The notes under the pieces: generated by a model | What the model was told of the DNA's origin: nothing | What the model saw: only the letters and a program-made list of their open reading frames with translations | Database searches by the model: none | Shown: positions 25,309-32,172 of the stretch, one piece after another | Numbering within the stretch: the stretch's first letter is position 1 | Layout: the number at the start of each line of letters is the position of its first letter | Position numbers and translations under genes: made by a program | NCBI GenBank assembly: GCA_030041455.1 | Contig: JASHNV010000086.1 | Coordinates: 1-34,611, forward strand | From: Spirochaetia bacterium | Lineage (GTDB): Bacteria > Spirochaetota > Spirochaetia > DAHUYW01 | Reading direction: 5' to 3' | Length of the DNA: 34,611 nucleotides

Positions 25309-26080
25309 TCAGCCCGGGCCCGAGAGCGCGCGCACCCGCTCGCCCATCCGTCGCCTGAGACGCTCGGGATCGAGGCGCTCGGCGCCCCCTGGCGCCGCGG
25401 CGTCGAGGATGATCCGCACGAGCGCCGAGCCGACCACCGACGCGTGAACCTCGCTCCTGATCTCGGCGACCTGCTCCGGGCTCGAAACGCCGAACCCCGC
25501 GAGAATCCGGGCGCCGAGGGGCCTCAGGCGGTCGAGGAAGCGGTGGTTCTCGCTTCCGAGCGCCGTGTAGCGTCCGGTGATGCCCGCCCGGAGCGCGGCG
25601 TAGAGGTAGGCCGGCCGCATCGAGCGCACGAGCGCGAGCCTCTCCTCCGACACGTCCGGCGCCACGACGGGCACGATCTCGATCGCGCTCCGCGCGCCGA
25701 TCTCGTAGAGGCGCTCGTCGGAGCCCGGCATGAGGTCGGGCACGATGAGCCCGGCGGCGCCGGCCGCCTTCGCGCGCTCGACGAAGCTCTCGACGCCCCT
25801 CCGGACCACGAGGTTCGCATAGCTCATGATGAAGACCGGAACGCCCGCGAGCGCGCTGATCTCCCCGACGAGCTCGAAGCCCCGCGCCACGGTGAAGCCG
25901 GCCTCGAGCGCCGAGCTGCAGGCGGTCTGGATGAGGGGCCCGTCGGCCGAGGGGTCCGAGAACGGAAACTGGACCTCGAGGTAGCGGGCTCCCCCGTCGA
26001 TCATCCCGCGCGCGGCGGCGAGCGAGAGCTCGCGGCTCGGGAAAAACGCGACGAGGTGGGTCATGAGAGGCGAGCGCGCC

Positions 26081-26091
<11 letters not shown>
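25309..26091 (-). CDS. trpA: Tryptophan synthase alpha chain
   Basis: TrpA cleaves indole-3-glycerol phosphate to indole, which is channelled to TrpB. The 260-residue product has the catalytic acids Glu39 and Asp50 in YLEVQFPFSDPSADGPLIQ, matching Glu49 and Asp60 of Salmonella TrpA. Other motifs are VFIMSYANLVVRRG, GLIVPDLMPGSDE, IVPVVAPDVSEERL and ILAGFGVSSPEQVAEI. The ATG at 26091 overlaps the end of trpB by 11 bases, with GGAGG upstream inside trpB. A later in-frame ATG (26064) would remove the N-terminal residues. The long open frame above 26091 is Arg/Ser-rich and not part of the protein. Confidence 0.96.
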
Positions 26092-27303
<1,212 letters not shown>

Positions 27304-27307
<4 letters not shown>

Positions 27308-28764
27308 CCGCGCGCTCCGGCGCGCGAAGCCGCCTCGATCTCGCCGAAAAAGGCGCGGAGCTTCGCGGCGTCCTTCCGGCCGGGCGACGCTTCGAGGCCG
27401 CTTGAGGCGTCGACGAGCTCGGGGTTGAAGGCGAGGATGAGCTCCCGGACGTTCTCCGCGCCGATGCCGCCCGCGACCCAGAGCGGCCCGCGCGACCGCG
27501 CGGAGCGCAGGAGCTCCGGGCCGATCCGCTCGCCGGTTCCTCCGCGCATCCCCTCGCGGTACGCGTCGATGAGGACGCGCGGGCAGCGGTAGTCGGGGAT
27601 CCGCTCGACGTCCGCCGCGCCCTGAAGCCTGAGCGCCTTGTAGTAGGGAAAGGCGGTGCGCCAGCAGTCCTCGGGCCCCTCGTCGCCGTGGAGCTGGACC
27701 GCGTCGAGCGCTCCTCCGTCGAGGAGGCGCTCGACCTCCTCGGGAAGGCTCTCAGGCCCCCCCGAGGTGACGACCACGCCGACCTTTTGCGCGCGCGTCG
27801 CGCCGAGCGAGCGGACCGCCTCGGCGTCGGCGCGCCGCTTGCTCGGCGCGAAGATGAAGCCGAGAAGGTCGGCGCCGAGCTCGTCGGCGAGACGCGCGTC
27901 CTCGGCCCGCGTGAGGCCGCAGACCTTCACGAGGGGGCGCGCGGAGGAGAGGCGCCCGGCGTAGAGCCGATCCCAGAAGGGCCGCCGCTCGGCGCGGAGC
28001 CCCGAGAGAAGCGCCGGGATGAGCTCCGGGGAGCGCACGACGGATTCCCCCACGAGAATGCCGTCGAAGCCCGACGCGGCGGCGAAGGCGGCGTGCTCCT
28101 CCGAGGAGATCCCCGACTCGAAGACGGTCGCCGCCTTCCACGTGATCGCGCTCCGGGCGGCAAGCGGCGAGGCGAGGTCGACCACGAACGTGTCGAGATC
28201 GCGCGCGTTCAGCCCGACGAAGGCGGGCGCGAGCGGGGCGACCTTCGCCGCTTCGCCGGCCGCGTGGATCTCGACGAGGCTCGCAAGGCCGAGCCGCGAC
28301 GCGCGCTCGTGGAGCGCCGCGAGCTTCTCCTGGGAGAGCGCCGCCGCGATGAGGAGCACGGCGTCCGCCCCCGCCCGGTAGGAGGCGTCGATGTCCTCGG
28401 GCTCGAGGAGGAAGTCCTTCCGAAGGACGCAGAGCCCCGGATTGCGCCGTTTGACTTCGACGAGGTCGGAGAGCGACCCGGAGAAATGGTCCCGCTCGGT
28501 GAGGACGGAGACCGTCTTGACCCCGCGCGAGGCGTAGAGCGACGCCTGCGCGGGGGCGTCGAGCGCCGGGCTGATCGCCCCTTTCGAAGGAGAGCGGCGC
28601 TTGATCTCGCAGATGAGGAACCGCGCGCCCGAGCCCGCTCCGTCGCTCCGGCCGAAGGGGACGAGCGGAAGCTCCCGGGTCCTGGGGAGCGCGCAGCCCA
28701 TCGCGGGCCCCTCGGCGCGGAGGCGCTCGGCCCGCCTCGCGACGATCTCCTCGAGGACGCTCAT
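27304..28764 (-). CDS. trpCF: Fused indole-3-glycerol phosphate synthase / phosphoribosylanthranilate isomerase
   Basis: A 486-residue two-domain enzyme for steps three and four of tryptophan synthesis. Residues 1 to about 260 are TrpC: LICEIKRRSPSKG, SVLTERDHFSGSLSDL, VLRKDFLLEPEDI, LVEIHAAGEAAK, VGLNARDLDTF and FESGISSEEHAAF. Residues about 280-486 are TrpF: VKVCGLTRAEDARLADELGA, the core Cys region, FIFAPSKRRAD, VQLHGDEGPED and VAGGIGAENVRELI. Both halves keep their catalytic residues, so both should be active. The ATG at 28764 overlaps the stop of trpGD as ATGA. The frame runs on far upstream, but that part is an Arg-rich shadow of trpGD. Confidence 0.97.
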
Positions 28765-30359
28765 GCGAGCGCGGCCCCCGCCGCTCGGACCTCTTCGAGC
28801 TTCGCCAGGACCTTTCCCCCCTCGAGCGCCTCTTTCGCGAGGCGGAAGCCCTCTTTCAGGTCGGAAGCGATGCCGTAGACCGCGAGGCCCCCGGCCGCGT
28901 TGAGGAGCACGGCGGCGCGCACCGCCTCGGGCCCGCCTCCGGACAAAAGCTCCTTCGCGATCCTGGCGTTGTCCTGCGCGCTCCCGCCCTTGAGCTCGGC
29001 CGCCGGGTAGCGCTTGACGCCGATCTCGGCGGGGTCGAAGGAGCGCTCGTCGATCGCTCCGCTCTCGCCCAGCGTGACGATCCTCGTCGGCCCGCCGACC
29101 GAGATCTCGTCGAGGCCGTCGGCGCCGTGAACCACCATGACCCTCTTCAGACCGAGGAGGCGCGCCGCTTTCGCCACGGTGAGGCAGTGCTCGTCGGAGA
29201 ACACCCCGATGAGCTGGTACTCGGCGCCCGCCGGGTTCACGAGGGGGCCGAGCAGGTTCATGATCGTCTTGATGCCGAGCTCCCGGCGCACCGGCCCGGC
29301 GTGGCGCATCGCGCCGTGATAGAGCGGCGCGAAGAGGAAGGCGAAGCCGGTCTTCTCGATGAGCGCCTCGGAATCCTTCGGCTTGAGCTCGATCGGGACG
29401 CCGAGCTCCTTGTAGAAATCCGCGCTCCCGGAAAGCGAGCTCACCGCCCGGTTCCCGTGCTTCGCGACGCAGGCGCCGCAGGCCGCCGCGACGAGGGCCG
29501 CGAACGAGGAGATGTTGAAGGTGCCGAGCTCGTCGCCCCCGGTGCCGCACGTATCGAGGACGGGACGCGAGACGGCGAGGGGCGTGCGCTTCTGCTGCAG
29601 GACGCGCGCGCATCCGGCGACCTCCTCGGCGGCGATGCCCTTCGCGTTGAGCGCGACGAAGTAGCCCGCGATGCTCGAGGCGTTGAGGTTCCCCTCCGTG
29701 AGCTCGGCCATGAATCCCTCCGCCTCCTTCTGCGAGAGGCTCTCGCGGCGGATGATCTTCGCGAGGTTCTCCTTCACGGGGTACGGCTCGCGCTCGTAGC
29801 TCAGGAAATTCTTCAGGATCTGCTTGCCGAACTCCGAGGCGACCGACTCGGGATGGAACTGAATCCCCTCGACGAGAAGCTCCCGGTGCCTGACTCCCAT
29901 GATCTCGCCGTCGAGGGAGGTGGCGCTGACCTCGAGCTCGGGGGGAACCTTCGCCGGATCGATGACGAGCGAGTGGTAGCGGGTGAAGACACCGGTCGCG
30001 GGGAGGGTACGGAAAAGCCCCCGTCCGTCGAGCTTGATGCTCTCGGTCTTCCCATGGACGAGGCGGCGCGCCGGGACGATCGAGCCTCCGAAGGCGTAGC
30101 CGATCGCCTGGTGGCCGAGGCAGACGCCGAGGATCGGCACCTTGCCCGCGAAGCGCCGGATGGCGTCGACCGTCACGCCGGCTTCCTCCGGCCTCCCGGG
30201 GCCCGGGGAGATGATGATCCCCTCGGGACGGAGCGCCTCGATCCCGTCGCAGGTGATCCGATCGTTCCGCACCACCTTGATCTCCTTCTTCGTGAGCTCG
30301 GTCAGGTACTGGTAGATGTTGTAGGTGAACGAGTCGTAGTTGTCGATGAGCAGGTACAT
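28761..30359 (-). CDS. trpGD: Fused anthranilate synthase glutaminase / anthranilate phosphoribosyltransferase
   Basis: A 532-residue fusion. Residues 1 to about 195 are the glutamine amidotransferase TrpG, starting MYLLIDNYDSFTYNIYQYL, with IISPGPGRPEEAG, the nucleophile Cys80 in ILGVCLGHQAIGYAFGG and His169/Glu171 in GIQFHPES. Residues about 196-532 are TrpD: DTCGTGGDELGTFNISSFAA, AKHGNRAVSSLSGSADFYKELG and MRHAGPVRRELGIKTIMNLLGPLVNP. TrpG feeds ammonia to TrpE; TrpD adds the phosphoribosyl group to anthranilate. The same fusion makes up TrpD of E. coli. The ATG lies one base after the trpE stop (TGACATG). Confidence 0.98.
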   Translation of the reverse strand: MYLLIDNYDSFTYNIYQYLTELTKKEIKVVRNDRITCDGIEALRPEGIIISPGPGRPEEAGVTVDAIRRFAGKVPILGVCLGHQAIGYAFGGSIVPARRLVHGKTESIKLDGRGLFRTLPATGVFTRYHSLVIDPAKVPPELEVSATSLDGEIMGVRHRELLVEGIQFHPESVASEFGKQILKNFLSYEREPYPVKENLAKIIRRESLSQKEAEGFMAELTEGNLNASSIAGYFVALNAKGIAAEEVAGCARVLQQKRTPLAVSRPVLDTCGTGGDELGTFNISSFAALVAAACGACVAKHGNRAVSSLSGSADFYKELGVPIELKPKDSEALIEKTGFAFLFAPLYHGAMRHAGPVRRELGIKTIMNLLGPLVNPAGAEYQLIGVFSDEHCLTVAKAARLLGLKRVMVVHGADGLDEISVGGPTRIVTLGESGAIDERSFDPAEIGVKRYPAAELKGGSAQDNARIAKELLSGGGPEAVRAAVLLNAAGGLAVYGIASDLKEGFRLAKEALEGGKVLAKLEEVRAAGAALA

Positions 30360-30360
30360 G

Positions 30361-31803
30361 TCAAACCTCCAAACCGAGCACGGAGGCGAGCGCGCGAAGC
30401 TTTTCGTTGGTTTCCTCGTACTCGCGCTCGGGAACCGAGTCGGCGACGACCCCGGCGCCGGCTTGGAGGATCATGGTGTCGCCGGTCTTCAGGCCGCTTC
30501 GAATGGTGATGCAGGTATCGAGGCTGCCGTCGGCCTCGATGTAGCCGACGAGGCCCGCGTAGAAGCGGCGCGGCGCGCGCTCGATGCGGTCGAGGATCTC
30601 GATCGCGCTGATCTTCGGCGCTCCCGACACCGTTCCGGCGGGGAAGGTCGAGCGGATCGCGTCGATGCCGGTCCTGCCCGCGGCGAGCTGCCCTTCCACC
30701 TCGGAGACGATGTGCATGACGTGCGAGTAGCGCTCGATCTCCATGTACTTCGTGACCTTGACGCTTCCCGGCGCGCAGATCCGCCCGAGATCGTTCCGCG
30801 CAAGGTCGATGAGCATGAGGTGCTCGGCACGCTCCTTCTCGTCGGCGAGGAGCTCCGCCTCGAGCGCCTCGTCCTCCGCTTGGTCCCGGCCGCGCTTGCG
30901 CGTCCCGGCGAGGGGCCGGATGACGGCCCTGCCGTCCTTCACCTTCACGTGCACCTCGGGCGACGAGCCGAACAGCTGGTAGCCGCCGAAATCGAGGTAG
31001 AAGAGGTAGGGCGACGGGTTCTTCGACCTCAGGTTCTTGTAGGCCTGAAGAGCGCCGAGATCCGTCGCGATCGTGAGCCTGCGCGAGAGCACGCCCTGGA
31101 GGAGATTGCCCTTCACGATCTCCTCTTTGACCTCCCGGACGCCGTCGAGGAACTCCTCGCGCTCCCGGGCGTCCGGGCGGTGCTCGGCGTGATGGTTCCG
31201 CGTGTCCCTCGCGAGGTAGTTGAAGTCGAGGTCGTTCATCTTCTCCTCGGTCGCGCGGAGCGCGGCCTCGAGGTCGATCTCGTGCTCGTTGTAGTTGCAC
31301 CCGACGAGGTAGATGATGTCGGTGTAGTGGTCGAAGATCACGAAGACGTGCCCGAACAGGAAGCAGGCGTCCGGAAGATCGAGGGGATCCTCCTTGGGCC
31401 TGAAACGGATCGTGTCGCAACGCGCGGAGAACTCGTAGGACAGGTAGCCGATGCCGCCCGCCGGGATCGGGAGATCCTGGTGAAGCGGCGTGTGCTGCCT
31501 CGCGAAGGCCATCAGCACGTCGAGGATGTCGCGCCCGGTCGTCTCGACGGCGCGGCGCTCCCCGTCCGCCTCCATCGTGATCTCCCCGCCGCGCTGCGAG
31601 ACCTGAAAGGCCTCCACCGCCATGAGGAGCGAATAGCGCTCCTTGCCCTTCTTGAACGAGGAGCTCTCGAGGATCACTTTCGCCCCGAGCTTGCGCGCGA
31701 GGGTGTAGGGCGTGAAGCGCTCCCCGGGGACGATCTTGATCACCGTGTCCTGCCGGACCCCCGCGGCCGTGCGGAGCGCGTTCTTCTCTTCGGTCTGCGT
31801 CAT
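30361..31803 (-). CDS. trpE: Anthranilate synthase component I
   Basis: TrpE makes anthranilate from chorismate with ammonia from TrpG. The 480-residue product shows the tryptophan feedback-site motif in AKVILESSSFKKG, and the chorismate-binding core GNLLQGVLSRRLTI, LFGSSPEVHVKV, IRPLAGTRKRGRD, HLMLIDLARNDLGRIC, HVMHIVSEVEGQL, FPAGTVSGAPKISA and GYIEADGSLDTCITIRS. The ATG at 31803 has GGAGG nine bases upstream; a longer frame begins at 31830, inside the leader next to the attenuator T-run, and is less likely. It is the first structural gene of the operon. Confidence 0.97.
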   Translation of the reverse strand: MTQTEEKNALRTAAGVRQDTVIKIVPGERFTPYTLARKLGAKVILESSSFKKGKERYSLLMAVEAFQVSQRGGEITMEADGERRAVETTGRDILDVLMAFARQHTPLHQDLPIPAGGIGYLSYEFSARCDTIRFRPKEDPLDLPDACFLFGHVFVIFDHYTDIIYLVGCNYNEHEIDLEAALRATEEKMNDLDFNYLARDTRNHHAEHRPDAREREEFLDGVREVKEEIVKGNLLQGVLSRRLTIATDLGALQAYKNLRSKNPSPYLFYLDFGGYQLFGSSPEVHVKVKDGRAVIRPLAGTRKRGRDQAEDEALEAELLADEKERAEHLMLIDLARNDLGRICAPGSVKVTKYMEIERYSHVMHIVSEVEGQLAAGRTGIDAIRSTFPAGTVSGAPKISAIEILDRIERAPRRFYAGLVGYIEADGSLDTCITIRSGLKTGDTMILQAGAGVVADSVPEREYEETNEKLRALASVLGLEV

Positions 31804-31834: not shown

Positions 31835-31868
31835 AAAAAAACCGCGCGGGGCTGCCGACCCGGCGCGG
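31835..31868 (-). terminator. trp attenuator (intrinsic terminator in the leader)
   Basis: On the minus strand CCGCGCCGGG (31859-31868) pairs with CCCCGCGCGG (31842-31851) with one C-C mismatch, loop TCGGCAG, followed by seven T (31835-31841), about 32 bases before trpE. Upstream, GCGCGG at 31903-31908 is complementary both to the terminator's 5' arm (CCGCGC, 31863-31868) and to CCGCGCGA at 31873-31880, allowing alternative folds. Confidence 0.82.
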
Positions 31869-31929
31869 CTTGTCGCGCGGCGGATCCGGCTCGGGGACCC
31901 GACCGCGCGAAGACAGCAAGCGGCTCCGG

Positions 31930-32028
31930 CTATTCCCCGGGCCGCCACCAGCGCGAGCGCAGAGCTTTCCCCGATGCGTCGGTGCGGCCGGGACCGGGTC
32001 GGTTCTCGCGCGAGCTGTTTCTATTCAT
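31930..32028 (-). CDS. trpL: trp operon leader peptide with tandem Trp codons
   Basis: A 32-codon open frame starts at ATG 32028 and ends at TAG 31930. Codons 27 and 28 are TGG TGG (31945-31950), in SRWWRPGE at the C-terminus; Trp is otherwise absent. It lies between the trp promoter and the attenuator, as expected of a leader whose slow translation under tryptophan starvation prevents termination. The ribosome-binding site is weak (TAAG about 10 bases upstream), and the untranslated leader is only about 10 bases. Segments next to the Trp codons (GCGGC) and just past the stop (GCCGC) can pair, like the 1:2 stem of the E. coli leader. Confidence 0.85.
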   Translation of the reverse strand: MNRNSSRENRPGPGRTDASGKALRSRWWRPGE

Positions 32029-32045
32029 AGTAACACTTATCGGAC

Positions 32046-32074
32046 AATGTAGCCGACACCGGCCGTTTTGTCAA
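32046..32074 (-). promoter_or_regulatory. Sigma-70-type promoter of the trp operon
   Basis: On the minus strand TTGACA (32069-32074), a 17-base spacer, TACATT (32046-32051). Transcription should start near 32039, about 10 bases before the leader peptide ATG. I see no clear TrpR-like palindrome over it. Confidence 0.75.
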
Positions 32075-32154: not shown

Positions 32155-32172
32155 GATGAGCCCGGGCTCATC
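32155..32172. repeat. Perfect 18-base palindrome over the ABC ATPase stop codon
   Basis: GATGAGCCC followed directly by GGGCTCATC. It includes the TGA of the ATPase gene (32168-32170). As RNA it folds into a short hairpin; as DNA it could bind a dimeric regulator. Confidence 0.6.

Follow-up and report, generated by a model that had tools for sequence, protein, structure and literature searches.

A putative ribosome-mediated trp attenuator and a predicted TrpR-type operator upstream of trpE in a spirochaete

The DNA upstream of a spirochaete trp operon most probably encodes a ribosome-mediated transcription attenuator combined with a TrpR-type operator (probability about 0.88). The case is carried by the anatomy of the leader and its conservation among spirochaetes, by a modelled fold that changes with the position of the ribosome, by compensatory changes found among related genomes, and by the co-occurrence of the operator with TrpR. 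From these we infer where transcription starts, that the leader is translated, that transcription terminates in vivo and that TrpR binds. The mechanism itself is classical and known; it is the phylum for which we found no prior report in open-access papers.

Results

The trp operon and its genomic setting

The window, by which we mean the whole 34,611-nucleotide stretch analysed here, lies on contig C128 of a 3.39 Mb assembly (G000) of Spirochaetales type. The closest matches of its TrpE are from Spirochaetales MAGs (best identity 80%), and a TrpE homologue is encoded in 41 of 60 related genomes. According to Pfam domains, a complete trp operon is laid out in the order trpE-trpGD-trpCF-trpB-trpA, all on the minus strand:
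30361-31803, minus strand: trpE, anthranilate synthase component I, with its ATG at 31803 behind GGAGG
28761-30359, minus strand: trpGD fusion, GATase and anthranilate phosphoribosyltransferase (Pfam domains)
27304-28800 (start provisional), minus strand: trpCF fusion, IGPS and PRAI domains in one frame (Pfam domains)
26081-27307, minus strand: trpB (Pfam domains)
25309-26157, minus strand: trpA (Pfam domains)
Two fused genes, trpGD and trpCF, thus occupy 27304-30359 on the minus strand. The gene upstream of the trp promoter region encodes an ABC-transporter ATPase and ends at 32168.

Promoter, leader frame and tandem Trp codons

The region ahead of trpE contains the following elements:
32069-32074, minus strand: -35 hexamer TTGACA of the trp promoter (promoter scan)
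32046-32051, minus strand: -10 hexamer TACATT, after a 17-base spacer (promoter scan)
32017-32034, minus strand: 18-bp palindromic operator GTTACTATGAATAGAAAC, a predicted TrpR site overlapping the leader ATG (recurrence, TrpR co-occurrence)
31930-32028, minus strand: predicted leader peptide gene of 32 codons, MNRNSSRENRPGPGRTDASGKALRSRWWRPGE, with ATG at 32028 and TAG at 31932-31930 (open frame; relatives)
31945-31950, minus strand: tandem Trp codons TGG TGG, codons 27-28 (frame translation)

The initial annotation had proposed a TTGACA-17-TACATT promoter followed by a short frame with TGG TGG at codons 27-28, and both are indeed present on the minus strand, the Trp codons at 31950-31945. 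The promoter scan gave one such site in the 1 kb scanned, versus 0.0 in 50 shuffles, and TTGACA also precedes the operator in a same-genus locus (L055) and in many other spirochaete trpE loci. When the 337-base intergenic region was shuffled 2,000 times with its dinucleotides preserved, 0.55% of the shuffles gave a short frame with adjacent Trp codons (WW frame), and none gave such a frame followed by six T. Genome-wide, the TGGTGG..T6 pattern was uninformative, with 3 matches versus 3 in the control; since the pattern alone is not rare, the case for an attenuator depends on its position and conservation. Two features of the window count against an attenuator: the leader frame has no evident Shine-Dalgarno sequence ahead of it, and a 5' UTR of only about 11 bases is predicted. 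NCBIfam held no model for the leader peptide.

Predicted alternative stems and their dependence on ribosome position

Folding defined the segments that could form the mutually exclusive structures of an attenuator:
31937-31945, minus strand: segment 1, GCGGCCCGG, which overlaps the last Trp codon and pairs with segment 2 (folding)
31917-31929, minus strand: segment 2, CCGGAGCCGCTTG, directly 3' of the stop codon, an alternative partner of segments 1 and 3 (folding)
31873-31910, minus strand: internal hairpin inside the predicted antiterminator (folding)
31860-31872, minus strand: segment 3, CAAGCCGCGCCGG, the 5' arm of the terminator and the antiterminator partner of segment 2 (folding)
31840-31871, minus strand: GC-rich terminator hairpin (3:4), -20.9 kcal/mol (RNAfold; homologous hairpin in L055)
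31835-31841, minus strand: terminator run of seven T (sequence)

The 1:2 stem consists of GCGGCCCGG paired with CCGGAGCCGC (-17.2 kcal/mol), and the predicted antiterminator joins CCGGAGCCGCTTG (31929-31917) to CAAGCCGCGCCGG (31872-31860), with a long internal hairpin between them. The initial annotation had assigned the dual pairing to GCGCGG; that pairing exists, but the relatives point to CCGGAGCCGCTTG as the key segment instead. It had also placed a hairpin with seven T just before trpE, which we recovered at -20.9 kcal/mol with the T-run at 31841-31835. A simple terminator scan omitted this hairpin, whose stem contains a 1x1 mismatch, and the call therefore rests on RNAfold and on the homologous hairpins in relatives.

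We then folded only the RNA that a ribosome leaves exposed, in two states in which the A-site holds either the first Trp codon or the stop codon; in both, the RNA ended before the 3' arm of the terminator is made. Across 25 members, the terminator 5' arm was sequestered by upstream RNA to a mean of 0.67 with the ribosome at Trp, versus 0.29 at the stop codon. As the ribosome-at-Trp state always exposes more RNA, spacer shuffles were used as the control, and the drop in sequestration exceeded them with a combined p of about 6e-9, an optimistic value because the rows are related. In the window, sequestration rose from 0.53 with the ribosome just short of the Trp codons to 0.69 on them, then fell to 0.27 once it was at the stop codon; the switch test on the window by itself went in the right direction and was not significant (p = 0.11). 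In L009, L076, L089 and L082 the modelled switch was weak or slight. Across the members, the modelled antiterminator excludes the terminator, is favoured with the ribosome at Trp and is lost with the ribosome at the stop codon. In equilibrium folding the terminator wins in both ribosome states, so that a kinetic switch like that of E. coli is required.

Conservation and covariation among spirochaetes

Spirochaete genomes yielded 99 usable regions upstream of trpE, in which we counted frames of at most 60 codons with adjacent Trp codons. A WW or WWW frame occurred in 27 of the 99, compared with 3.2 expected from dinucleotide shuffles, and the tandem Trp codons were found in many spirochaete families and in a second class. 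Loss of these codons in close relatives, which the initial annotation had named as evidence against the attenuator, was not seen: the same-genus relative (L055) has TGG TGG TGG. No stop codon interrupts its frame back to an ATG that occupies the same position within the palindrome as the window's ATG, so that both leaders would start with MNRNS. Counted from the operator ATG to WWW, the L055 frame spans 83 codons, an unusual length for a trp leader, and later starts are possible.

The similarity extends beyond the codons. Directly after the stop codon, CCGG(A/G)(A/G)CC is found in the window and in members of several families and the second class. Each of the 25 members has a predicted hairpin adjoining a T-run after the Trp codons, in nearly all of them 50 to 130 bases downstream. 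Two tandem hairpins with T-runs lie between the WW leader and trpE in L085, L087, L090, L094, L100 and L007; the second of the two could serve as a backup terminator or exert a control of its own.

Compensatory changes were sought in seven alignable relatives (clade A1), which belong to a different clade from that of the window. The antiterminator was paired in 88% of the cells with 2 pairs changed on both sides, and the terminator in 97% with 4 such pairs; sliding by one column reduced each pairing to about half or less. The 1:2 stem was paired in 91%, with one-sided changes and no two-sided ones.

A few of the 27 WW frames are likely chance occurrences, for example L126 and L061, in which the start codon or the terminator is not in the right place. 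Conversely, many trpE-bearing spirochaetes have no WW frame. Because these loci include looser cases such as L086, the WW count misses some attenuators and probably underestimates those in which the Trp codons are not adjacent. L086 combines a leader frame ending in SNIWNWRPM (WNW) with a strong eight-T terminator about 130-300 bases ahead of trpE. On the trpE tree, the WW label is clustered but patchy (10 changes versus 17.5 in shuffles), a pattern that fits both of the histories the leader may have had, one origin with losses or several gains.

A predicted TrpR-type operator at the promoter

The palindrome at the start of the leader, which the initial annotation had missed, lies at +5 to +22, 11 bases after the -10 hexamer. 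The window sequence GTTACTATGAATAGAAAC recurs in relatives as GTTTCTATnnATAGAAAC. At least 14 of 16 operator positions were matched in 67 of 100 trpE upstream regions, whereas shuffles never exceeded 13, and with up to 2 mismatches allowed the window site is the only operator match in its own genome. TrpR (PF01371) is encoded in 44 of the 60 relatives and in the window's own genome. It is present in 26 of 27 operator-positive genomes versus 1 of 7 operator-negative ones (Fisher p = 3.5e-5, with kinship ignored). The genome's own TrpR homologue scores 53 bits against PF01371 (cut-off 27) and can be aligned to E. coli TrpR; its best model is TIGR01321, at 50.8 bits, below the cut-off of 67. Judged from these sequences, Trp-bound TrpR probably blocks initiation at the +5 to +22 palindrome.

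The two elements are not always found together. G027, G047 and G010 have a WW leader and neither TrpR nor the operator, and many Treponema-type loci (a tentative label) have the operator and no WW frame, indicating that the two controls come and go separately. In L105, L118 and L127, which are also tentatively Treponema-type and have no WW leader, there are two operator copies, one of them across the -35 TTGACA (GTTTCTATTGACAGAAAC).

Discussion

The proposed attenuator would work as follows. Transcription would start near 32039, and the leader frame would be translated as the RNA is made. Scarcity of charged tRNA-Trp would make the ribosome stall at the two Trp codons and cover segment 1, leaving segment 2 to pair with segment 3; no terminator would form, and RNA polymerase would enter trpE. 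When Trp is plentiful, the ribosome would reach the stop codon and cover segment 2, so that segment 3 would pair with segment 4 and transcription would end at the T-run. As an independent layer, Trp-bound TrpR would block initiation at the palindrome.

We considered whether the operator could be the sole control, with the leader untranslated, the WW frame a chance occurrence or a relic, and the hairpin terminating constitutively or setting a basal level. The wider distribution of the operator relative to the WW leader, the many loci of tentative Treponema type with an operator and no WW, and the missing Shine-Dalgarno sequence of the window leader all point that way. Against them stand WW frames eight times commoner than in shuffles, their occurrence in genomes that have neither TrpR nor the operator (G027, G047 and G010), and a modelled fold that varies with ribosome position, and we therefore consider exclusive control by TrpR unlikely. 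A role for the leader peptide that does not involve termination, in which its translation acts on trpE through reinitiation or translational coupling, has precedent in the leader-peptide reinitiation proposed for bacteria including Spirochaetales (PMC4833913). The leader stop lies about 127 bases from the trpE start, however, compared with a peak of 10-11 bases in that study, trpE has its own GGAGG, and a terminator stands between the two, all of which makes this explanation very improbable.

T-box and TRAP leaders, which sense tRNA and protein instead of using a leader peptide, control trp genes in Bacillota. In an Rfam search of the window and 28 related loci, however, only tRNAs scored above threshold and no T-box was found, in line with a 2008 survey in which the T-box was absent from 6 spirochaete genomes (PMC2494555). 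Inspection by eye revealed no series of (G/U)AG repeats, and a leader of either type is the least probable of the explanations considered, with hardly any weight left to it. Weak Rfam matches to mgtE and isrK (E 0.1-5) were set aside as chance.

Going beyond the window, we tentatively suggest, at somewhat less than even odds, that Spirochaetota have full E. coli-style dual trp control, that the 18-bp site is constrained both as an operator and as the leader initiation region, where it encodes MNRN, and that a very short 5' UTR lacking a Shine-Dalgarno sequence suffices for translation of the leader.

In a survey from 2010 (PMC2965389), Proteobacteria and Actinobacteria were the only groups from which leader-peptide systems were already known, and the survey itself contributed his leaders in Firmicutes. 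In the open-access literature we found no report of a trp attenuator or a TrpR operator in a spirochaete. The suggestion in the initial annotation that the leader would widen the range beyond proteobacteria and actinobacteria agrees with both. Ribosome-mediated attenuation in this lineage would take classical trp attenuation, and with it the coupling of transcription to translation at a leader peptide, into another phylum. It would also mean that TrpR and attenuation coexist outside Proteobacteria too, each gained and lost separately in a way that lends itself to comparison over dozens of genomes, and the predicted operator and leader set can be used to annotate spirochaete trp genes.

Compared with known systems, the window most resembles E. 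coli, which also has a short leader peptide with adjacent Trp codons close to its end, 1:2, 2:3 and 3:4 pairing with a U-run terminator before trpE, and a TrpR homologue with a palindromic operator at the promoter. The differences are that the window leader has 32 codons versus 14 in E. coli trpL, matches no Rfam family and comes from Spirochaetota instead of Proteobacteria, that its antiterminator encloses a long internal hairpin, and that the spirochaete operator differs in sequence (GTTTCTATnnATAGAAAC) and overlaps the leader start codon. The actinobacterial trp attenuators of Corynebacterium and Streptomyces share with the window the run of UGG codons in the leader, of which they have two or three, GC-rich poly-U terminators and a segment with two pairing partners (PMC1262725). 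They belong to another phylum, and the window differs from them in also having a TrpR-type operator.
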